From positions 1 through 59,031 of IMG/VR virus record IMGVR_UViG_3300009103_000035: a DNA stretch of 59,031 nt; one strand, written 5' to 3'. Position 1 is the stretch's first letter, and each line of letters opens with the position of its first letter. Below the pieces are notes generated by a model that was given only the letters and a program-made list of their open reading frames with translations, had not been told where the DNA came from and did not search any database. The translations under genes were made by a program, and so were the position numbers. This DNA is from a virus. Shown in pieces: positions 1 through 35,741 of the stretch.

Positions 1-810
1 TTACGGTGGTCAACCAATAATACAGGACTGCGTATATGGCCAGACTGGATACAGGTGGGAGATGAGATTCGTGTAGCTCCTGGTGGTGAAGGGTTCTTAG
101 ATACCAATGGCACAACTTATGAATGGGCAACTGTTCTTGACGTTGATAATGTCAATAAGCTAATTAAACTGGATAGGGATACTGTATATGCTAGTCCAGC
201 AACACAAGAGTTAAAAGTCAGTCCAAAAAGAAAAGATATCACTAGCTGGGAGATCTATAAACAAAGTAGCCCCGTAAATATGCATAGTGGAGCTGGTAAA
301 GCTTACACTGCTGATATCTGCAATCTTGATGAGTTTGAAACCCTCAATTTCAGACCCATTATGAGAGTGTATACTAACGAACAAATTGATGAGCCAGATG
401 GTAACTTACCACCTGCAGGAATTTACACTAGCGTACCGGTTCCTACGGATGTCGCTTTTCGTATTCGATCTGATGGGAAAGTAGAAGCTAAAACAACTTA
501 TTTAACAGGTTCCTCCAGGAATATAAAACAAAATATTGAAAACCTATCAGAAGAAAAATCTAGTTTAATATTAGAGGGATTACAACCAGTAACATTTGAA
601 TATAAAACAAGTCCTGGTGAATCTCGTATAGGTTTTATTGCAGAAGATGTTCCAGAATATGTTGCTGAAAAAAATAGAAAATCAATTTCAACATTAGACA
701 TTGTTGCAGCAATAACTGGAGCCCTTAAATCACAAAGTGAAAAGGTAAAAACCCTTGAAAAAGAAATTGAAGATATGAAACAACTATTACAAAACTCAGG
801 AGTAATTTAG
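1..810 (+). CDS. Tail fibre/spike protein, C-terminal part, with S74-type intramolecular chaperone (5' end outside window)
   Basis: The frame is open from the first base, so this is the C-terminal part of a longer protein; a GTG at 55 is only an internal codon. The last ~100 residues match the endosialidase-type (peptidase S74) intramolecular chaperone: a Ser-Ser-Arg followed by IKQNIENL (around base 511), a central GFIAEDVPEYV segment, and a terminal coiled coil with Leu/Val heptads. In this family the domain trimerises the fibre and then cuts itself off at the conserved serine before the IKxNI motif. The residues before it are beta-rich fibre shaft. It is followed closely by three co-directional genes. 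The domain call is strong; whether self-cleavage occurs is inferred, since the usual Ser-Asp pair reads Ser-Ser here. Confidence 0.85.
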   Translation, partial: LRWSTNNTGLRIWPDWIQVGDEIRVAPGGEGFLDTNGTTYEWATVLDVDNVNKLIKLDRDTVYASPATQELKVSPKRKDITSWEIYKQSSPVNMHSGAGKAYTADICNLDEFETLNFRPIMRVYTNEQIDEPDGNLPPAGIYTSVPVPTDVAFRIRSDGKVEAKTTYLTGSSRNIKQNIENLSEEKSSLILEGLQPVTFEYKTSPGESRIGFIAEDVPEYVAEKNRKSISTLDIVAAITGALKSQSEKVKTLEKEIEDMKQLLQNSGVI

Positions 811-814
811 TGAA

Positions 815-1219
815 ATGGCAAACATAGTTAAAAAGGTAGATCGAGGAGTCGCAACGGCTCAACGCACACAAAACTTCACTCAAGCAGATATAACTGGAGA
901 TGGAGATATACTCAAGATTCAAGAATCCTTAGGGAAAATGGCAACACATATTGTAATTGAAGTTCCAGGTGGTGGAGGCAGCATGACTGTTAGGTTTAAT
1001 GTTATCAGAACAATCTACCCGAACAGAACAAAAGAAGAATATGATTGCCTATATCCAGAAATGTATAAGAATCTTGCCTTGGGGCAAGAAGTAGAAGATA
1101 CTACTGGAGCATTGGTTACAATTGGTGCTGGTGAAACATTCGAGCTTGACAATGATCTACCTGTCAAAGATATTAAGATCGTATCTGCATCTACCAATTT
1201 CGATATTTTCGTATGTTAA
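815..1219 (+). CDS. Small beta-rich phage protein, probably virion-associated
   Basis: I do not recognise this 134-residue protein. It begins 4 nt after the fibre stop, with AGGAG 12 nt upstream of the ATG. The sequence is soluble, beta-strand rich, has a Gly-rich turn (PGGGGS, about residue 50) and ends in a Cys. There is no signal peptide or membrane segment. Its place directly behind a fibre gene suggests a small structural or fibre-associated protein, but this is inference from position only. Confidence 0.6.
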   Translation: MANIVKKVDRGVATAQRTQNFTQADITGDGDILKIQESLGKMATHIVIEVPGGGGSMTVRFNVIRTIYPNRTKEEYDCLYPEMYKNLALGQEVEDTTGALVTIGAGETFELDNDLPVKDIKIVSASTNFDIFVC

Positions 1220-1229
1220 GGAGTGTCTT

Positions 1230-1568
1230 ATGGCTAGAAAAAATAAACAAGCCAGTATTTCATTAGAAATAGATGGTGAACAACTAGAAAAAATTGCAGA
1301 AAAAATGGCAATTACTATAGGTAAAGAACTAGCCAAGGCCCTATCTGGAGGAGTTTCAGTAAGTACAAAAAGTACTGGATTTAAGTCTTCTGGTCAGATA
1401 CAAGATATTGGTGGGGTAAGTATTGATGAATCAATCATCCCAATGAAAGTAGAAGCAACCCTAAGCTCAACAAGCAAAGAGCTGGGCAAAGAAGAGAAAT
1501 CAGAAGACAAAGGTTTATCTGATTCTAAGAAAAAATTAGCAAACCTATTTAAGAAAAAAGGAGAGTAA
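1230..1568 (+). CDS. Small charged protein upstream of the actin-like ATPase
   Basis: This 112-residue protein starts at the ATG preceded by AAGGAG (1218-1223); an in-frame start further upstream would overlap the previous gene and lacks a ribosome site. The N-terminal half has an amphipathic helix with an IAEKMAITIGKELAKAL pattern. The middle is Ser/Thr/Gly-rich and likely disordered, and the tail is strongly basic (KKKLANLFKKKGE). The family is unknown. It lies 3 nt before the actin-like ATPase, with that gene's Shine-Dalgarno inside its own end, so the two are probably co-expressed. A partner role for the ATPase is possible but unproven. Confidence 0.65.
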   Translation: MARKNKQASISLEIDGEQLEKIAEKMAITIGKELAKALSGGVSVSTKSTGFKSSGQIQDIGGVSIDESIIPMKVEATLSSTSKELGKEEKSEDKGLSDSKKKLANLFKKKGE

Positions 1569-1571
1569 GAA

Positions 1572-2570
1572 ATGCCCAAAGGCCTTGATGTGGGAACTTC
1601 TTTTCTAATCACTGCAGAGGAAACTCTAGAAGGAGTATCCTACAAAGAGATGCGTGATGCATTTTACAGAATGAAACCAGCAACAAAAATTGCTGCCAAG
1701 ATGATGGAAAGAGGATTACAGAACCTTACCTACCTAAAAGACGTTGACGGGTCCTATGTTGTCGTAGGAGCTGATGCAATTGCCAAAGCAATAGAAAGAC
1801 ACCAATCCGCACAGCGGCCCCTATACAGGGGTGTTATTAGCCCCAGAGAGCCTGATGCTCGAAGGGTGCTTAAGTTTATTTTAGCCGAGCTTGTCGGTAA
1901 ACCACAAACCCAAGGAGATACCCTTGTTTACTCAATTCCTGCTGAACCTGTTGATCAATCTGACGAAGACTTTAATACCGGATACCACGAAGATGTACTT
2001 AGAAAGGATCTTGGTGAACTTGGTTGGGATGCTAGAGCACTCAATGAAGCGGAGGCTATCTGCTATTCTGAGTTAGAAAATGAAGACTATACTGGAATCT
2101 GTATGTCCTTTGGAGCGGGTATGGTTAATGTATGTGTTATGTCTTCTGGAGAACCAGTAATCAAGTTCTCTACTACAAAATCAGGAGACTGGGTAGACAG
2201 AATGGCAGCCCAATCCACTGGACAGCCAGATAGTATTGTTCAAGTTGAAAAAGAAGAAGGTGATTTCACTGTAGGAGAAGAGTCAGAGAATCCAATCTTG
2301 TCTGCAGTAAGTTCTTATTATGTAAGACTTATTGATTACACTACACAACACCTGGCATTACGGCTTTCAAATAGCAATGACCTTCCTAAATTCCAGGGAC
2401 CTATCCCTGTGGTGGTAAGTGGAGGAACTAGTAGAGCAGGCGGATTCGTAGAAGCATTCCGCAAGAGGATGTCTCAAGCTGATTTTCCTTTAGAAATCAG
2501 TGAAGTACGTCATGCAACAGACCCCTTAAGAGCTGTTGCTAGGGGCTGCCTACTCGCAAGTATCTTGTAG
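1572..2570 (+). CDS. Actin/ASKHA-fold ATPase (ParM/MreB-like)
   Basis: The 332-residue length matches bacterial actins. Three nucleotide-binding signatures appear in order. A phosphate-1 loop, GLDVGTS, lies at residues 4-10. A phosphate-2 loop, MSFGAG, lies at 178-183, preceded by an NEAEA segment (158-162) that resembles the connecting helix E-x-x-A of MreB/ParM. An adenosine motif, VVVSGGTSRAGGF, starts near 280. The Asp usual in phosphate-2 is replaced by Ser179. Members of this superfamily bind ATP and often polymerise; in phages and plasmids they move or segregate DNA. GGAG lies 8 nt before the ATG. It sits between a basic small protein and a small winged-helix-like protein, an arrangement like an actin-type partition operon. 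The fold is well supported; filament formation and DNA segregation are inference. An Hsp70- or Ppx-like enzyme is the main alternative. Confidence 0.75.
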   Translation: MPKGLDVGTSFLITAEETLEGVSYKEMRDAFYRMKPATKIAAKMMERGLQNLTYLKDVDGSYVVVGADAIAKAIERHQSAQRPLYRGVISPREPDARRVLKFILAELVGKPQTQGDTLVYSIPAEPVDQSDEDFNTGYHEDVLRKDLGELGWDARALNEAEAICYSELENEDYTGICMSFGAGMVNVCVMSSGEPVIKFSTTKSGDWVDRMAAQSTGQPDSIVQVEKEEGDFTVGEESENPILSAVSSYYVRLIDYTTQHLALRLSNSNDLPKFQGPIPVVVSGGTSRAGGFVEAFRKRMSQADFPLEISEVRHATDPLRAVARGCLLASIL

Positions 2571-2602
2571 TATGCTATACTATTCGAATGGGGAATTCGA
2601 AT
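2568..2602 (+). promoter_or_regulatory. Palindrome cluster with possible leaderless promoter at the start of the small gene
   Basis: Two features overlap here. TAGTAT and ATACTA form an inverted repeat (2568-2573 and 2577-2582, 3-nt loop). The self-complementary octamer ATTCGAAT occurs twice, at 2582-2589 and 2595-2602, spaced 13 bp start to start and flanking the ATG at 2588. TATACT at 2576-2581 is a good -10 hexamer; with it the transcript would start at or next to the ATG, which fits the lack of any Shine-Dalgarno for the next gene. No good -35 is seen. An operator bound by the downstream protein is a plausible reading. Confidence 0.4.
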
Positions 2603-2815
2603 AACACTTCAATAGATAGATTGGACGGGCTCAAGCTCGTTTATGACCTTCAAAAAAATGAGGAAGAAGTCTCATCCGTTAAGCTGATGAAGATAAAGTC
2701 CTATATACTTGATTGGTTAGAAAAGCAGGAATATATTTCTTGGAATGAGAATAAAACAAAAGCTTCTATAACTGATAAGGGGATAGGGTATCTTGCTGAA
2801 CGAAAATGGATTTAA
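2588..2815 (+). CDS. Small winged-helix-like protein, possible DNA-binding partner of the actin-like ATPase
   Basis: The 75-residue protein looks like a compact winged helix. Two helices (KLMKIKSYILDWLEKQEYI) are followed by a beta hairpin (SWNENKTKASIT) and a last helix (DKGIGYLAERKWI), a layout common in small MarR/ParR-size DNA-binding proteins. It has no Shine-Dalgarno, and its start lies inside palindromes and a TATACT box. It follows the actin-like ATPase gene by 17 nt, where actin-type partition systems place their adaptor. Its stop overlaps by 3 nt the stop of the convergent nuclease gene. The fold call is by eye and the role is inferred. Confidence 0.5.
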   Translation: MGNSNNTSIDRLDGLKLVYDLQKNEEEVSSVKLMKIKSYILDWLEKQEYISWNENKTKASITDKGIGYLAERKWI

Positions 2816-3181: not shown

Positions 3182-5041
3182 CTACCTGCAAATATCAGTG
3201 AACATATCTTTGAGCATATCGACATAGGAACTCACATCATTTACAAGAATATTTTTTATTTTATTTGGATCAGACTCCACTACAGGCAACCACATTTGTG
3301 TAAAGATAGGCTTTGTAATGACAAAGAATTCATATATATCACCGGCAGTGCAGTCACCAACTGTACAATGATTTGAATATAGTGCAACATCTGATGGGCT
3401 TACGTTGGTCATTGTTTGTCCAACCTCATCTGTCATTAATATAATGTATGGATGAGCATCTTCTCTCCAATTGATCCCTATTGGATCTTCAGGCATACAA
3501 GCCATATATGAAATATCATATGTGTACTCATAAGATCCTCCATTTGCTTGCAATCCACCAAGAATACCAGTTAGTTGATTTACATCTACTAGCATATTCC
3601 CAGGGACTCCAGTTCTTATCTCATAGGTATTACTGCCAGCGTATCCTACACTTGTTGTAATTAAACCAAACTTATGTTCAGTGCCTTGAAAATCAGAGAC
3701 ATACAGCCCCAATGCATGCGATAAAGCATCAATATAACTCTGCATAGAGCCAGAGATATCAACAACAAATATTATATCAACCTTGTCATGTGGATCTAGT
3801 TCCTCATCAACTAAGCCGTCACAGTCATTATCGAGACCATCACAGAATTCCTGTTCAGGATGGACCTCACCAATACATTCAGAGTAGATACCCATTTCAC
3901 ATTCAGTTTGCCCAGCCCTGCATTCTCCAATACCAACTAGCTCTGGATTATCTGAACAGGGAAGAACGATTCCATCTATCTCTCCATCGCAATCATCATC
4001 CCATGCATTGCAAACTTCTGGTAAGGTTCTAACAAAAAAACAATCTCCATACTCTCCATATATATCGCAGTATTGTATCCCTTCCCCACAGGGATAGGGA
4101 GCACCCAGTTGTTCTCCTGTATTGATATCGAACATAGGACTTTCCACACAGATTTGCGTATCTCCAAAAGCGCATGGACAGCCTTCGTCTACTTCCCCAT
4201 TGCAGTTATTGTCTACACCATCGCATAGTTCTTGACTTGGCTCTGGAGCTGTACAGTTATACCAATCTCCACTGTAGCAAATCTCTATTCCCTGACCACA
4301 TGCTGTCTCACATAATTGATATATGTTGTTATCCTTGATTCCATCACAATCATTATCAATATTGTCACATGTTTCTGCCTGAGGATATTCTGCTCCCACA
4401 CAAGTCAGCTCACCATTAACACAATGGTTTTGTCCATAAGAACAAGCACCCCAATTGGTTTCTGGTCCACAAATGGTTGGAATAATATCTTCATCAATTA
4501 ATTCGTTACAGTTATCGTCTATGCTATTGCATAGTTCGTCAGCTCCTGGATTGATATGTGGGTTGTTATCATCACAGTCTCCATCACAAACTGGATATTG
4601 ATCATTATCAATATCAGCTTCATCTTGAGAAACATGACCGTCACAATCATTGTCTAGATTATCACATAGCTCTGGGGCTCCTGGATAAATGGTATTATTT
4701 CCATCATCACAATCCCCATTACAGGTAGTGAAGGTATCTTCGTCTAGATCATAACCATCATCAATTATCTCGTTACAGTCATTGTCTATCCCGTCACAAA
4801 TGTCTTCTGACGGACGTACAAATCCCTCACAAATAATTGAATTTTCTCCTGTACATTGTACTGTTCCGGTTTGACATGCCCCAATGTTGAGTGTAGTGTA
4901 CTCGGGACTTTCAGGCTCAAGTAATTGAACTTGATCGTCAACAATTATGCAGGCCTTTGTAGATGGACAGTAATTTAGAATGTCTTGATTGCTGCAGCTG
5001 ATAAGAGAAATAGCAACAGCCAGGGAGAGCAATACCCTCAT
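3182..5041 (-). CDS. Surface lipoprotein with MopE-type metal-binding repeats and a von Willebrand A domain
   Basis: The 619-residue protein opens with a lipoprotein signal peptide and a textbook lipobox, LISC (Cys16). Residues ~40-420 hold seven copies of a Cys/Asp module of the type CDGxDNDCDGxxDE, some with GDCDDxNPxxxPGA spacers; this is the putative metal-binding motif seen in MopE and many myxobacterial surface proteins. A von Willebrand A domain follows (about 420-600), with the MIDAS motif DISGSM near residue 427 and a later MTDE strand. The expected place is the cell surface, anchored by lipid, binding Ca2+ or another metal through repeats and MIDAS. AGGAGG precedes the ATG. It lies between a protease and a nuclease in a cassette opposite to the structural genes. 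Such a protein is unusual for a phage and may be a host-derived conversion gene. Confidence 0.85.
   Translation of the reverse strand: MRVLLSLAVAISLISCSNQDILNYCPSTKACIIVDDQVQLLEPESPEYTTLNIGACQTGTVQCTGENSIICEGFVRPSEDICDGIDNDCNEIIDDGYDLDEDTFTTCNGDCDDGNNTIYPGAPELCDNLDNDCDGHVSQDEADIDNDQYPVCDGDCDDNNPHINPGADELCNSIDDNCNELIDEDIIPTICGPETNWGACSYGQNHCVNGELTCVGAEYPQAETCDNIDNDCDGIKDNNIYQLCETACGQGIEICYSGDWYNCTAPEPSQELCDGVDNNCNGEVDEGCPCAFGDTQICVESPMFDINTGEQLGAPYPCGEGIQYCDIYGEYGDCFFVRTLPEVCNAWDDDCDGEIDGIVLPCSDNPELVGIGECRAGQTECEMGIYSECIGEVHPEQEFCDGLDNDCDGLVDEELDPHDKVDIIFVVDISGSMQSYIDALSHALGLYVSDFQGTEHKFGLITTSVGYAGSNTYEIRTGVPGNMLVDVNQLTGILGGLQANGGSYEYTYDISYMACMPEDPIGINWREDAHPYIILMTDEVGQTMTNVSPSDVALYSNHCTVGDCTAGDIYEFFVITKPIFTQMWLPVVESDPNKIKNILVNDVSSYVDMLKDMFTDICR
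3755..4930 (-). repeat. Seven Cys/Asp (MopE-type) modules within the lipoprotein gene
   Basis: Seven diverged copies of C-(D/N)-x-x-D-(N/D)-(D/N)-C-(D/N)-(G/E) followed by acidic residues are spread over this stretch. They are read on the minus strand, are variably spaced, and are separated by other Cys-containing strands. Boundaries are approximate. In known MopE-type proteins such modules bind metal ions and are cross-linked by disulfides, which would require export from the cytoplasm. Confidence 0.8.
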
Positions 5042-5071: not shown

Positions 5072-5782
5072 CTATTTGGCGATAGTCTTTTTAATAAATT
5101 CTCTTATCTCATCTACAGGGACTGCTAATGCAGTTTCATGAATGCCGAGGGGTTGTACAACAACCATCCCTACGACCTCACCGTTTCTCAATACGGGAGA
5201 ACCACTGTTTCCTGCTTCGATATTAACGGCTATAAAAATCATATCACTAAATTGCTGAAAACGATAGGCAAGAGAGGAAATAATTCTCCCTTCTCTTCTT
5301 ACTGGAAAGAATCCACGAGGTGCTCCAATGATTGTGACCTCATCTTCAGTAGATAATTCAGCTACTGACTCTGCAAGAGACAATGGTTCCATTCCATGAT
5401 CAATAGATTCTATAATACAAATATCGTTAGGTCTGTCATACCCAACAATTCTTGCAAGGATAGGGGTTCTGGGCATACCTCTTTTATCTGAACGAACAAG
5501 AAGAACCTTTTCACCAACTAATCCCTGAGCAAATAAAATAGAACTAGATTCGCAAAAATGACCAGCAGTTAATAAATGCCTTTCATCAATTGCAAAGCCT
5601 GTGGCAGTTCCACCACCATGACCTTTTTTCCCAGGAGTAGACTGAAGCAAAGCAACAGAGTTGTAAAACTTAGTCTTTAATAAGCTATTGATTTTATTTG
5701 GAAACCTGCTACAAGAAATACAAGACACAGTTAGAGTTAGACCTAGTGAAACTAGTGCCAACAAGTTCTTCATTTTTATCAT
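5072..5782 (-). CDS. Exported trypsin-like (S1/HtrA-type) serine protease without PDZ domain
   Basis: The 236-residue protein has an N-terminal signal segment with cysteines at 21 and 24; it may be a lipoprotein, but neither cysteine has an ideal lipobox. The mature part is a single chymotrypsin-fold protease with the complete triad: His75 in LLTAGHF, Asp120 in NDICIIE and Ser193 in GNSGSP. The C-terminus ends soon after the domain (AVPVDEIREFI), so no PDZ domain is present. It is expected in the periplasm or on the cell surface. It is the first gene of the inverted cassette, 30 nt before the MopE/VWA lipoprotein, behind its own promoter-like element. GGAGG lies about 10 nt upstream of the ATG. 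It might process the lipoprotein or other envelope proteins; the substrate is not deducible. Confidence 0.85.
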   Translation of the reverse strand: MIKMKNLLALVSLGLTLTVSCISCSRFPNKINSLLKTKFYNSVALLQSTPGKKGHGGGTATGFAIDERHLLTAGHFCESSSILFAQGLVGEKVLLVRSDKRGMPRTPILARIVGYDRPNDICIIESIDHGMEPLSLAESVAELSTEDEVTIIGAPRGFFPVRREGRIISSLAYRFQQFSDMIFIAVNIEAGNSGSPVLRNGEVVGMVVVQPLGIHETALAVPVDEIREFIKKTIAK

Positions 5783-29534: not shown

Positions 29535-32500
29535 ATGGCAAATTTTCCAACCAATCCTAGTATTGGAGACTTATTTGAAACAAAACATGACACTTTTAAG
29601 TGGAACGGGAGCGGATGGGAAGCTCTCGGGAGAATTCTTACCCATAGACAAAAATCAGGAACTCCGTATTCCTCGCTCTCCATTAAGGAGAGCGGGGGTG
29701 TCTTGGACACTGACGATACAAGTACTGTTCTTCTTATAGGAGAGCAGATAACAGAAGGACAAGTTAGGGCAGCTCATTTAAGTGATGCAAACACAGTCTT
29801 TTTATCTGGAGAAACAGCAGCAACTGGAATCTCTGAATTTTCAAATGATGGAAATACTCTTTTTCTTTCAGGAGAAGGTGCTACTGCAGGACTAGAAGCA
29901 CACACAGCAGATGTGGCAACAACAGCACTTGTAACCGGAGAAAGAGACGCATCTAATTATAAAATGAGATGTAGTCTTAGCAATGATATGGTAATGAGGG
30001 AAGGCTATCGCTTTGAGCATGAAGATTGGATCAGCACTCCATCGAGCAGTGATTTTGCATTTGGAACTGGAGATTTTACAGTTGAGTTTTGGGCATACAA
30101 TGAAGACGTAAGTAATAGCACCCAAAAAGGATTAATGCAGATTTCAGATACCGCAGGAGGCATTAAAACTTCCTATGATACAGGGTTTATTTTAAATCTT
30201 GGAGGTGGCATAGGGGACGGTGTGCTTAGGTTGCATGATGGAACTCAAACAGTTGCAACAGGTGTTGGCATTATGAAAGAAAATACCTGGCAACATGTTG
30301 CAGTAAGTAGAACTAGTGGAACAGCAAAAATATTTATTGACGGGAAAGAAGAAGCTTCAGGCTCTTTCACAGCAGACGTGGTTGGAACAAATCTTGGTAT
30401 AGGCATGTATTATGGGTATAACCAAGGAGGTTATGACTACGGGATAATTGGCTATATGAAAGATATTAGAATATCTAAAGGCATAGGAAGATACACTGCA
30501 GATTTCACAACAGAGATTACGACAAAAGATAGCAACCATAAGTTAATTCTTGAGGGCAAGGATGATATTTCTGATTCAGGGCACACGGTAACCTTTCATA
30601 ACAGTGCCCATCAAGTATCTAAAACAGGAAACAAATCTTGGCACAAATTCGGATCACCTTTAGGCTACATAAGATCATATGATAGTATCTCTCTTGATGG
30701 AGACTTTACAATCGAATGGTGGTACCTATCGAAAGAAACTGGAACACAGCACATGTTTACTATCGGAGATAGTCAGCAAAGCTCTGGACTAGAATTCTAT
30801 CAGGGTGGTGACGGCCAAAAACTATACACAAACAGTGGATATATATGGACCAATGGTGGATATGTATCTACGAATACCTGGTATCATTTTGCTGTAGTAA
30901 GAAGCAGTGGAGTAGTAAAAGTCTACAGAGACGGAACTCAAATTGGTTCTGACTGGAGTACTAATACTACATTTTCAGGTCGAATCGGAGTAGGTGTGGA
31001 ATGGTACGGAAACCAAGCCTATACAAATGCGAAAGAAGCCTATTATGATGACTTCACTATACATAGAAGCGCAAAATACACTAGTGCTTTTACCCCTTCA
31101 ACCACAGCAGCTCCAATAGATGGACTCAATACACTATTTAAAGCGACAACTGATTATGACACATCAGATAGAATGCAAGATATCATTGGGTTTCACGGAA
31201 ACGCAACAACTATTGAAAAGGGCTACTATTATACAGGAAACAATAGTTCAAATAATATATTGGTTGGCAATGCAGGAACTGATTTTAATTTTGGCTCAGA
31301 TAAGTTTACTATAGAATTTTCTGTTAAATTTGATGATGTAAGTCAATACATGGGAATTCTAAAAATTAAGCACCCTTCAGAGAGTAGAAAATATCTAATT
31401 ATAGATGCACCAGGACCAAACGCTAATGAAGGTTTAAGACTCTATGTAAATGATGGCAGTGGAAGTAACAATAGTTGGAAAACCTATTGGGTTGCAGAAC
31501 CAAATTTTGAAAACGACAAGTGGTATCATATCGCTATAGTAAGAGATGGAACTGGTTCAGGTGATTGGTATTTCTTTATCAATGGAAAAGAGGAATCAAA
31601 ATGGAAGCATCCAACTGTTGCTCCAGGGGATCACTATGCGCTAGCTATCCCAGATCTCACTGATGGGATCGAAATTGGGGGCAATTCAGACAACTACATG
31701 ATGGTCGGCAACATTACAGACATCAGAGTTTCTAAAGGTGTAGCTAGATACACTAGCAACTATAGTGCACCAGTAACAGCAATTGATTCAGATCATAAAC
31801 TCGTATTAAGTGGTGGAGCAGAAGACGAATCGGATTCCGCTCACACAATAACTTTTAATGGAACTTCAGATGTAGCAACAAAGCGTGGAGATCGTTCTCT
31901 ATATTTTGATGGGACCGGAGACTACGTTACTATCCCAAGTAGTTCAGATTTTGCACTAGGAACCGGAGATTTTACAATAGAATGCTGGCTGAAATATGAA
32001 ACTGCAGATACTTTCCCATATGTATTTGATTTTAGAGATGCAGGAGCACAAGGAGTATTCCCTACTTGCTATCTAAGAAGCGACGATGGTTACAAACCAG
32101 TATATTATGTTGATAGCGCACAAAGAATCACATCTTCTGTGAGTTTAACCATCGATACTTGGTATCATCTTGCAATTTCAAGAGTTAGCGGAACAACAAC
32201 CATGTATTTGGATGGAGTAGATGTGGGTTCTTTTTCTGATTCTTATGATTATCAAGCAAGCCCTATAAGATTAGGGGCATATAGCAATGGTGATTATGAG
32301 TTAACAGGCTACATTAATGATTTTAGAGTTTCTAAAGGCACAGCTAGATATACTAGTGCTTTTGATCTTGAATCTGGAACTGGTCTTTTGGATAAAAGTT
32401 CAAATTCTCACAGCATAACTCTGTCAGGGAATGCAGCATTAAGTACAGCAGAAAAGAAATTTGGAACACATTCCTTATATTTTGCAGCAGACAATGATTA

Positions 32501-35500
32501 CGTAGCCATCACAGATCATTCTGATCTCCAATTTGGAGCAGATGGAGACTTTACAGTTGAATGCTGGTTTAAAGTTCCTAATATCACAGCCTATGCGCAG
32601 TATCTATGGATTAAACATGATAGTGGAGCATTCGCCAAATTTGGTATGCAAATACAAATTGATGGAACCTTAAGACTCCTTGCAGCTAACTCTAGCGACA
32701 ATGCTTACTTAGCGCTTGCTGCAACTTCTGGTCATGCAGCTCTTGATGACAATGAATGGCATCACTGTGCTTTAACTAGATCTAGCGGAACAACTAAAAT
32801 CTGGGTAGACGGCACAGAAAGAATGTCAACTACAGATGCGTATAATCCTAGTTTTGCAGGGCACAACTTCAATATTGGAGGAACTCCTCTTAATGTATAC
32901 ACAGGCTTAATCAATGGTTATGTTGATGATTTTAGAATTTCAGATACGGCAAGATACACTAGTAACTTCTATCTTGATGCAGTAACTTATCCTAGTGATC
33001 AAAGTTCAAATTCCCATAGTGTAACTCTGTCAGGAAATGCAGCTTTAAGTACAGCTCAAAAGAAATTTGGAACATATTCTTTATCATTTGATGGCAATGG
33101 AGACTATGTCTCTATTGCTGATTCAGATGACTTCCAATTAACAGGTGATTTTACAATTGAAACTTGGGTACGCTTTAATGCAATTCAAGATTCCTGGTTT
33201 GCATGTCAAGCTGTAAACGACAACAATGCATGGGCCTTTGGTTATATGAATTCTGGAAATGGTTTAACATTTAAACATGCAGAAGGAAGCTGGGGAAGCC
33301 CAACAATCCTGGTAGAAGGAGCATGGACCCCATCTACAGGACAATGGTATCATGTTGCAGTTACAAGAAGCGGAAATGATTTCAAGTTATTTGTCGATGG
33401 CACGCAGGTAGGTAGCACAGTTACAGACACCACTGCTTTTGCAAACTTTGGAGCCCCTGTAGTCTTAGGAGTCTGGGGGACAGGTAGTTATTCAGGAAGT
33501 CCACTTAATGGATACCTTGATGACTTCCGTATTTCTAGCAGTGCAAGATATACTTCTGCATTTCTAATAGAGGATACAAAGACACCTCTAGATAAGAAAG
33601 GGAATCACACCTTAACTCTTAATGGAGATGCATTGATTACTTCTTCAGGTTCTACAGGTTCTAATGAAAATACCAAGTTTGGTACAGGAGCTATATATTT
33701 TGATGGAAGTGGAGATTATATTTCTACAAGCTCCATGACACTTGATGGGGATTTTACAGTTGAAGCATGGATTAAACCAACAACAGCGAACCTGTGTAAG
33801 CTAATGACTATTGGAGATATTAAGCAAACTAGTGGTTTTGAACTTTTTAGAGGCGGTGGAACTCCAAGTCTTCGAGTCGATACCGGTAACGGGACTGTAA
33901 ATTCACTGCTCATTCAGGGCTCTGAAGATGTGACTGTAAACTCATGGCAACATGTTGCAGTTGTAAGAAGTGGCTCAACTTTGACTTTATATAAAGATGG
34001 GGTTTCAATTGGATCTACAACTAATTCTGCTACCTTCAGTGGAACACTAATTATTGGAGGAGAATGGTTTGATGGAGCACTCAACGGATCAATGACTGGT
34101 TATATGGATGAATTCCGTATCTCAACAAGTGCTCGTTATACAGCAAACTTTACTCCTCAATCAGTAGAACATGATTTGATTGATGTTAGAGGTTGGGGTA
34201 GCCCAGTTCTTGGAAGCGGAGAAAGAGCACTCTTTGTAAATAAGAATGGTCTTGTAATGAAATCTTCTGATGGAACACTTACCAAATTAGATACAACCTC
34301 TATAGCTGGAAGGAAACTAAAAGAAGGTGACGAACCTGCTGCAACCGCAGATACAAGTACATTATTATTGCTACACTTTGAAGGAGATAATAACTCTCAA
34401 ACGTTTGTAGATTCTTCTAACTATGGACATACTGTAGAAGCAAGAATTGAAAATGGAACCGCAACTGATGTTAAGATGGTAACCAGCAATAAGAAAATTG
34501 GTACCTCTTCTGCATATTTTGATGGAAACTCAGAAGTCTTAAGAGTTGCAGGAAATTCTGCCTTTCAATTAGGAACTGGAGATTTCACAATAGAAACATG
34601 GTATAAGCAGCCAAATGATGGCGGTGAAGATTATGTGTTCGTACTTGGAAGCACGGGAGACTGGGTTATCTTAGCCTCATATATTTCCGGAGGAAATGTA
34701 TTTTGGGGATATCTCAATGGTTCATCATGGGTTGATACGGTGACCACCTCTGGACAAACTGTCACAGACAATGAATGGCATCATATTGCATATGTTAGAG
34801 CGTCAGGAACAATGACAATCTATATCGATGGAATTGCTCGTGGAAGTGTGGCTTCTACACATAACTTAACAACAATAATGGGTTCTGAACCTTTATGGAT
34901 TGGTGGTTATTATGGAGGAGGAAATCAAGGTCCAAATGTTTACATGGATGAATTTAGATTTTCAGATACTGCTAGATATACTGGAGCTTTTACACCCTCA
35001 ACAACTGCCTTCAAAGTGGCAGGGAAGCCAGCATTATATGTAGCTGCAGGAGAGGACAGTAATACAAAAGCAGCCCTGATAGGAGACTCTTTAACTTGTC
35101 TTACTGGAAAAACTCTTGCAGATACAGATGCTACGGTTGATACATCAGAAAAGCATTTTGGAGACAGCAGCTTAAAGTGGCAAAGTTCACAGACCAACTT
35201 CTTAAAGTATGATGATCATGATGATTTTCATATTGGAACTGGCGACTTTACAATCGAGGCTTGGATCAAGCCTACATTTGGAGTTGTTGAACCAATTTCA
35301 TTCATGTTTGATGGAACCACTAACAATAGATTCGCATTCTATGGGCAGGGAGGAAAGCTAATCTTCTTCTACGTTGAAGGGGGTTCTTCACAAATTGAAT
35401 TTAATGCAGGAGCAAGCAGCTTTACCAATAACACTTGGCAGCATGTAGCTATTGTTAGAAGTTCAGGAGACTGGTCAATTTATGTTGATGGAGTAGCTAA

Positions 35501-35741
35501 ATCACTAACCTTTTCAAACGGAAGTCAAGGTGATGCTCCAAACATTCAGAACTTTGATCGAGGAATGTACATTGGCTATCAATATTCAGGAAGTCACTGG
35601 TATCTTGATGCAAATATTCAGAACTGGAGATTTAGTAAAACCGCTAGGTATACTTCAAACTTTACACCTTCCACAGAGTCCTTTGACTCAGGTGGATTAA
35701 TTTATAGAGACCCCAGTGGTGTCAAAACAAAAATTAGCTAA
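29535..35741 (+). CDS. Giant adhesin (2068 residues) with nine tandem LamG-like domains
   Basis: A short N-terminal docking module (MANFPTNPSIGD, then TFKWNGSGWEAL) is shared with the next gene. After about residue 150 almost the whole protein is nine LamG/concanavalin-like (LamG_3-type) domains of 160-210 residues. Each has a start like YFDGxGDYV, a core GDFTIExW, a central WYHVAVxR, a DG turn, and an end like DDFRISxxARYTSxF. Approximate starts are 155, 355, 555, 790, 965, 1165, 1380, 1610 and 1860. LamG sandwiches bind glycans or proteins, so this looks like a multivalent surface-binding fibre. Two adjacent domains are joined by nearly identical DNA linkers, a sign of recent duplication. 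GGAGG lies 11 nt before the ATG. Confidence 0.85.
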   Translation: MANFPTNPSIGDLFETKHDTFKWNGSGWEALGRILTHRQKSGTPYSSLSIKESGGVLDTDDTSTVLLIGEQITEGQVRAAHLSDANTVFLSGETAATGISEFSNDGNTLFLSGEGATAGLEAHTADVATTALVTGERDASNYKMRCSLSNDMVMREGYRFEHEDWISTPSSSDFAFGTGDFTVEFWAYNEDVSNSTQKGLMQISDTAGGIKTSYDTGFILNLGGGIGDGVLRLHDGTQTVATGVGIMKENTWQHVAVSRTSGTAKIFIDGKEEASGSFTADVVGTNLGIGMYYGYNQGGYDYGIIGYMKDIRISKGIGRYTADFTTEITTKDSNHKLILEGKDDISDSGHTVTFHNSAHQVSKTGNKSWHKFGSPLGYIRSYDSISLDGDFTIEWWYLSKETGTQHMFTIGDSQQSSGLEFYQGGDGQKLYTNSGYIWTNGGYVSTNTWYHFAVVRSSGVVKVYRDGTQIGSDWSTNTTFSGRIGVGVEWYGNQAYTNAKEAYYDDFTIHRSAKYTSAFTPSTTAAPIDGLNTLFKATTDYDTSDRMQDIIGFHGNATTIEKGYYYTGNNSSNNILVGNAGTDFNFGSDKFTIEFSVKFDDVSQYMGILKIKHPSESRKYLIIDAPGPNANEGLRLYVNDGSGSNNSWKTYWVAEPNFENDKWYHIAIVRDGTGSGDWYFFINGKEESKWKHPTVAPGDHYALAIPDLTDGIEIGGNSDNYMMVGNITDIRVSKGVARYTSNYSAPVTAIDSDHKLVLSGGAEDESDSAHTITFNGTSDVATKRGDRSLYFDGTGDYVTIPSSSDFALGTGDFTIECWLKYETADTFPYVFDFRDAGAQGVFPTCYLRSDDGYKPVYYVDSAQRITSSVSLTIDTWYHLAISRVSGTTTMYLDGVDVGSFSDSYDYQASPIRLGAYSNGDYELTGYINDFRVSKGTARYTSAFDLESGTGLLDKSSNSHSITLSGNAALSTAEKKFGTHSLYFAADNDYVAITDHSDLQFGADGDFTVECWFKVPNITAYAQYLWIKHDSGAFAKFGMQIQIDGTLRLLAANSSDNAYLALAATSGHAALDDNEWHHCALTRSSGTTKIWVDGTERMSTTDAYNPSFAGHNFNIGGTPLNVYTGLINGYVDDFRISDTARYTSNFYLDAVTYPSDQSSNSHSVTLSGNAALSTAQKKFGTYSLSFDGNGDYVSIADSDDFQLTGDFTIETWVRFNAIQDSWFACQAVNDNNAWAFGYMNSGNGLTFKHAEGSWGSPTILVEGAWTPSTGQWYHVAVTRSGNDFKLFVDGTQVGSTVTDTTAFANFGAPVVLGVWGTGSYSGSPLNGYLDDFRISSSARYTSAFLIEDTKTPLDKKGNHTLTLNGDALITSSGSTGSNENTKFGTGAIYFDGSGDYISTSSMTLDGDFTVEAWIKPTTANLCKLMTIGDIKQTSGFELFRGGGTPSLRVDTGNGTVNSLLIQGSEDVTVNSWQHVAVVRSGSTLTLYKDGVSIGSTTNSATFSGTLIIGGEWFDGALNGSMTGYMDEFRISTSARYTANFTPQSVEHDLIDVRGWGSPVLGSGERALFVNKNGLVMKSSDGTLTKLDTTSIAGRKLKEGDEPAATADTSTLLLLHFEGDNNSQTFVDSSNYGHTVEARIENGTATDVKMVTSNKKIGTSSAYFDGNSEVLRVAGNSAFQLGTGDFTIETWYKQPNDGGEDYVFVLGSTGDWVILASYISGGNVFWGYLNGSSWVDTVTTSGQTVTDNEWHHIAYVRASGTMTIYIDGIARGSVASTHNLTTIMGSEPLWIGGYYGGGNQGPNVYMDEFRFSDTARYTGAFTPSTTAFKVAGKPALYVAAGEDSNTKAALIGDSLTCLTGKTLADTDATVDTSEKHFGDSSLKWQSSQTNFLKYDDHDDFHIGTGDFTIEAWIKPTFGVVEPISFMFDGTTNNRFAFYGQGGKLIFFYVEGGSSQIEFNAGASSFTNNTWQHVAIVRSSGDWSIYVDGVAKSLTFSNGSQGDAPNIQNFDRGMYIGYQYSGSHWYLDANIQNWRFSKTARYTSNFTPSTESFDSGGLIYRDPSGVKTKIS
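32398..33074 (+). repeat. Recently duplicated LamG unit (606-nt period)
   Basis: A 71-nt segment at 32398-32468 recurs at 33004-33074 with 63 of 71 matches by my count, 606 nt (202 codons) apart. It codes for the linker SSNSHS(I/V)TLSGNAALSTA(E/Q)KKFG in front of LamG domains 5 and 6. The other LamG linkers are much more diverged. Confidence 0.75.

Follow-up and report, generated by a model that had tools for sequence, protein, structure and literature searches.

The 59,031-bp IMG/VR virus record analyzed here in full (hereafter, the window) encodes a 332-aa ATPase that is actin-like and, by its profile match and predicted structure, a member of volactin, the haloarchaeal actin family. Together with the gene directly upstream, which encodes a 112-aa protein, it forms a two-gene module (table 1). 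Sequence comparisons with other viral loci identify this upstream protein, not the 75-aa ORF downstream, as the true conserved partner of the ATPase. The family is already known and its setting is new; the partner is conserved and the proposed binding code plausible. Neither the literature naming volactin nor a broader literature search, in the texts available, contained a description of phage volactins. Volactin, so far studied only in salt-loving archaea, is now found in many uncultured large phages, and the pair suggests how such filaments attach to membranes.

Table 1. Features of the volactin module and its surroundings in the window.
Feature	Position	Strand	Evidence and remarks
Tail fibre, C-terminal part, with Peptidase_S74 chaperone domain	1..810	+	Pfam S74 4.9e-9; PHROG tail fibre 7.9e-15; neighbor, outside the module
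134-aa protein, function not assigned	815..1219	+	Just 5′ of the module; common to close relatives only
Adaptor partner, 112 aa	1230..1568	+	Amphipathic helix at the N-terminus, then a loose linker and the conserved bipartite tail (about residues 63–112)
Phage volactin, actin-fold ATPase, 332 aa	1572..2570	+	Pfam Volactin 1e-64, full length; AF2; Foldseek
TAGTAT/ATACTA and double ATTCGAAT inverted repeats	2568..2602	+	Start of the 75-aa ORF; not conserved
Winged-helix-like ORF, 75 aa	2588..2815	+	Window-specific, outside the conserved module; DUF6293_C 0.023, below cut-off

PHROG and profile searches matched genes of the window to tail-fibre and baseplate-wedge proteins, DNA polymerase, ribonucleotide reductase, and primase-helicase, and the window is therefore a fragment of a large contractile-tailed phage. 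A previous sequence-only reading had placed a fibre gene near the ATPase, and this gene indeed encodes an S74 chaperone domain. The adjacent 134-aa gene has a homolog at the same position in four representative loci, L009 among them. Its product had no match in Pfam or PHROGs, and a single-sequence scan of IMG/VR found nothing, although L009 holds a relative. Elsewhere in the window, positions 5072–5782, a few kb from volactin, encode a secreted trypsin-like protease, and a similar-looking secreted protein lies near volactin in ten representative viral loci. On the minus strand, positions 3182–5041 encode a 619-aa protein, predicted to be secreted, that has seven repeats of the MopE metal-binding type together with a weak von Willebrand A domain; such a protein is unusual in a phage. 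The 2068-aa protein encoded at 29535–35741 contains nine stretches matching the same baseplate/virion families and is apparently repeat-built. PADLOC returned nothing relevant.

The three ORFs of the sequence-only reading, encoding 112, 332, and 75 aa, were confirmed at their positions, and Shine–Dalgarno-like sequences precede the starts at 1230 and 1572. The 332-aa protein matches the Volactin profile (PF25216) over residues 1–329 with 219.5 bits, against a curated cut-off of 35 (E = 1e-64). The Salactin and MreB profiles of Pfam match it weakly, and the salactin and MamK models of NCBIfam match far below their cut-offs. A PDB sequence search with the protein gave no match. Its AF2 model (pLDDT 93.4, pTM 0.90) is actin-like, the best Foldseek matches being MreB, MamK, and BeeR (E-values from 2e-14, for MreB, to 1e-13). 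The three nucleotide motifs follow one another as had been described: GLDVGT (phosphate 1), SFGAGM (phosphate 2, with Ser in place of Asp), and VVVSGGTSRAGG (adenosine). Over 56 aligned volactins, the residues G-D-G-T of phosphate 1, S-G-G-M-N of phosphate 2, and G-G of the adenosine motif are invariant; the family pattern GLDVGT / SxGAGM / GGTS...G, formed by invariant or nearly invariant columns of this alignment, is present in the window protein. As the phosphate-2 Ser occurs in 56 of 56 volactins, it is a family trait. The sequence-only reading was thus right about an actin-type ATPase and about the Asp-to-Ser replacement, but the new branch of the superfamily that it had derived from this replacement was rejected, the ORF being a full-length Pfam Volactin.

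Only two of the 50,697 deposited phage records encode a volactin, and both belong to uncultured huge phages (485 and 595 kb); named phages lack the family. In IMG/VR, an alignment-based scan identified at least 584 contigs encoding a relative, whereas a single-sequence scan with the window volactin found nothing. Genome contigs yielded 290 relatives, with many haloarchaeal proteins among the best 80, and PHROGs has no family for volactin or for its 112-aa partner. Each searched viral record contains exactly one copy, and the five longest (162–298 kb) carry a T4-type gp23 capsid protein. According to the volactin tree, 29 of 31 viral rows form one clade (100/99), which includes the window and L086, whose contig was binned as Flavobacteriales; outside this main viral clade are the huge phages L002 and L003. 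The tree requires three or more switches of label between virus and cell, and its long branches call for caution. Contigs L086, L087, L088, and L146 are filed under bacterial or archaeal MAGs yet are phage-like by gene content, so that the "cell" labels of L087, L088, and L146 are unsure.

The window partner gene lies 5′ of volactin on the same strand, with a gap of 3 nt, and its product ends in the basic tail "...SKKKLANLFKKKGE". A small operonic, basic-tailed protein before the ATPase had been mentioned only in passing in the sequence-only reading, and this remark proved correct. The partner HMM, whose training set includes the window protein, matches it with E = 2.9e-13. Each of the 82 main-clade viral loci encodes a partner relative, and most of these partner sequences also trained the profile; the gene is always on the same strand and is at most 100 nt from volactin in 76 loci. 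The gene order, partner then volactin, is likewise shared by 76 of the 82 viral loci. In its usual form, the partner starts with a short membrane helix (..LGYxxGRxD..), which a loose, variable linker connects to a conserved bipartite tail; in the tail, an ID-[DE]..[FIVY][IV] stretch is followed by "..LG......DI..AV.KLA.LKK". The membrane helix was found in 27 of 29 representatives; it is absent from the window and L007 partners, which retain the tail. In L006 and L071, members of the same clade as the window, it is present if GTG or TTG starts are used. The N-terminal helix of the window partner is amphipathic (moment about 0.44), and no DNA-binding domain was identified in this protein. The huge phages L002 and L003 also have small ORFs 5′ of volactin, where the tail motif is not supported.

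In L072, 17 codons separate the partner stop codon from volactin in the same reading frame, and we read this stop as Gln to obtain a linked construct. The AF2 model of this artificial read-through (partner, 17-aa linker, and volactin), computed with only 44 sequences, has per-residue confidence values of 90–97 for the membrane helix, about 50 for the natural linker (disordered), 90–95 for the conserved tail (residues 61–100), and 65–70 for the read-through linker. The tail, with a strand at 81–85 and a helix at 90–104, lies between the two poorly predicted linkers. For a mostly extended 40-residue segment, values this high are best explained by docking on volactin; such docking of the partner tail is thus predicted from the per-residue confidence values by themselves.

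With a 19-position profile built from phage tails only, we scanned 81 cellular volactin loci, which contain 1026 ORFs. Adjacent same-strand genes accounted for 19 of the top 20 ORFs, 2.2 being expected. Because haloarchaeal sequences are alike, the analysis was repeated on 552 families: the three best-scoring ones were all adjacent (30 adjacent families; p = 1.5e-4), as were six of the top 15, where shuffled profiles placed two to four. A rank-based test across all adjacent families did not reach significance (p = 0.38), the enrichment being confined to the top ranks. Column-shuffle p-values, obtained for families chosen after scoring, were 0.001 for L088 and DUF7139 and 0.003–0.006 for L095, L089, L091, and L120, with weaker values for L087 (0.03), L109 (0.054), and L097 (0.09); by the same comparison, L002 and L003 show no tail. 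The tail carriers differ: haloarchaea and Archaeoglobaceae have the tail on DUF7139 membrane proteins and L088 on a coiled-coil-like protein, further carriers are Omnitrophota proteins, and others lie near gas-vesicle genes (GvpL/GvpF in L095). Of the 33 haloarchaeal genomes that encode volactin, 25 have DUF7139 directly 5′ of it, as counted from coordinates. Neighbor genes of cellular volactins, haloarchaeal DUF7139 among them, thus appear to encode a similar tail, the match being weak for single families. Tentatively, and as a possibility that falls somewhat short of probable, we suggest one binding code for phage, bacterial, and archaeal volactins: a bipartite tail on otherwise unrelated proteins (one-pass membrane helix, DUF7139, coiled coil, winged helix, and gas-vesicle-cluster proteins) would couple cargo or membranes to the filament, and large T4-like phages would thereby build a membrane-tethered actin skeleton during infection.

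Cellular loci show further variation. Bacterial volactins are found in gas-vesicle clusters at 2003–9221 of L095 (GvpL/GvpF by Pfam) and 389–4679 of L090 (similar-looking genes), where volactin may organize gas vesicles. Two tandem volactin genes, one of them longer (about 450–660 aa), are present in L094, L097, L108, L116, L120, L129, L136, L139, and L149 (Omnitrophota and Planctomycetota). In the haloarchaeal genomes G024, G055, G058, G062, G063, G073, G075, G076, and G077, open frames of about 770–1260 aa contain another volactin match, which is diverged; they perhaps encode a large multi-domain volactin protein.

Haloferax volcanii is the only species for which volactin filaments are known in vivo; there they are dynamic, their tips touch the membrane, and the study gives the binding factors as not known (PMC10869688). 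For the phages, we consider it reasonably likely that the adaptor fastens the volactin filament to the membrane of the host, or to another anchor in the window phage, and so positions phage DNA or assembly sites. The second gene of the module would provide the actin-fold ATPase volactin, from which dynamic filaments are expected, and the C-terminal bipartite tail of the adaptor would grip it while the N-terminus anchors the complex. Where the anchor is the single transmembrane helix, as in most relatives, the host inner membrane would be the attachment site of the filaments. Since this helix is missing and an amphipathic helix is left in the window phage and L007, their anchor may be peripheral membrane binding via that helix, or another protein. 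By analogy with AlpA–AlpC of prophage CGP3, the filament probably positions sites of phage DNA replication or virion assembly. The module sits among replication-type genes in most relatives and behind the fibre gene in the clade of the window.

The repeats at the start of the 75-aa ORF are as the sequence-only reading described them. TAGTAT...ATACTA spans 2568–2582, ATTCGAAT occurs at 2582–2589 and 2595–2602, giving TATTCGAAT-N5-ATTCGAATA, and the first palindrome takes in the A and T of the ATG at 2588. They are perhaps a local operator; ATTCGAAT is not rare (three copies in the window, and at least three in 9 of 100 shuffles), and the RNA hairpin at the repeats is unremarkable (z = −1.1). 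The co-occurrence of these inverted repeats with an actin-like ATPase and a winged-helix-like ORF had been likened to actin-type partition operons; in such a ParMRC- or AlpAC-like system, the 75-aa protein would bind the palindromes and couple phage DNA to the filament. We hold this to be the least probable of the explanations considered, because no relative has the 75-aa protein or the palindromes: the protein has no relative in INPHARED phages or IMG/VR, the loci with related volactins have other genes 3′ of volactin, and none of the 28 other representative loci contains the palindrome. This is an outcome that the sequence-only reading had itself named as refuting. The 75-aa ORF was accordingly rejected as the volactin partner. 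It has no Shine–Dalgarno-like sequence before it, no parC-like iterons were found upstream of the module and no tandem direct-repeat arrays in six loci, and partition is not expected in a contractile-tailed phage with its own replication enzymes. In a separate observation, unrelated-looking phage proteins encoded just 3′ of volactin in L018, L019, and L042 have in common an N-terminal "MKIT..QLRRIIREE"-like sequence, which could be a virion- or capsid-targeting tag.

PilM is bound by PilN, and FtsA by FtsN, via a short peptide of a one-pass membrane protein. Phage volactin might similarly be a scaffold that forms no filaments and is held at the membrane by such a peptide; the Foldseek matches include PilM and FtsA, with PilM:PilN and FtsA:FtsN entries among them, and the partner has the same architecture of one membrane helix plus a binding peptide. 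However, the filament proteins MreB, MamK, and BeeR rank higher among these matches, and the studied volactin forms filaments in vivo, which makes a pure scaffold unlikely. Because the module lies behind a fibre gene and the adaptor has lost its membrane helix, the filament or the adaptor might act with tail-fibre or virion proteins in the clade of the window, where the S74 fibre and the shared 134-aa gene are 5′ of the module; virion-looking genes also adjoin volactin in the huge phage L002 and in L146, the syntenic contig. We judge this a still smaller chance, as most other main-clade phages have the module among replication and nucleotide genes (clamp-loader-like AAA, RecA-like, and dUTPase-like, as read by eye). 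Lastly, the predicted fold being closest to MreB, phage volactin might disturb host MreB filaments or cell shape and build no structure of its own. This is highly improbable, since a dedicated, always-present partner with its own binding tail favors a self-contained system.

The adaptor-anchored volactin filament that we favor can be compared with several known systems. Haloarchaeal volactin (VolA, HVO_2015, PF25216) belongs to the same family over its full length, with the invariant phosphate-2 Ser and 36–37% identity; the phage version differs in being encoded by large tailed phages. Their partners are a one-pass or soluble adaptor in phages and a multi-helix DUF7139 protein in haloarchaea, with a similar tail on both. 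This shared tail names testable candidates for binding factors, the DUF7139 protein in H. volcanii and the adaptors in phages. PilM–PilN and FtsA–FtsN also combine an actin-fold protein with a short peptide of a one-pass membrane protein, but no sequence match to them was seen and no pilus or division genes were noticed near the phage module. ParMRC likewise pairs an actin-like ATPase with a small binding partner, whereas the phage volactin module has neither iterons nor a conserved DNA-binding partner. The nearest parallel, by function, is AlpA–AlpC of the Corynebacterium prophage CGP3, a phage-encoded actin-like filament with a co-transcribed small adaptor, in which the adaptor links phage DNA to the filament and both are required for efficient replication (PMC4446434). 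Unlike AlpA, which binds DNA, the adaptors of phage volactins bear a membrane or an amphipathic helix.
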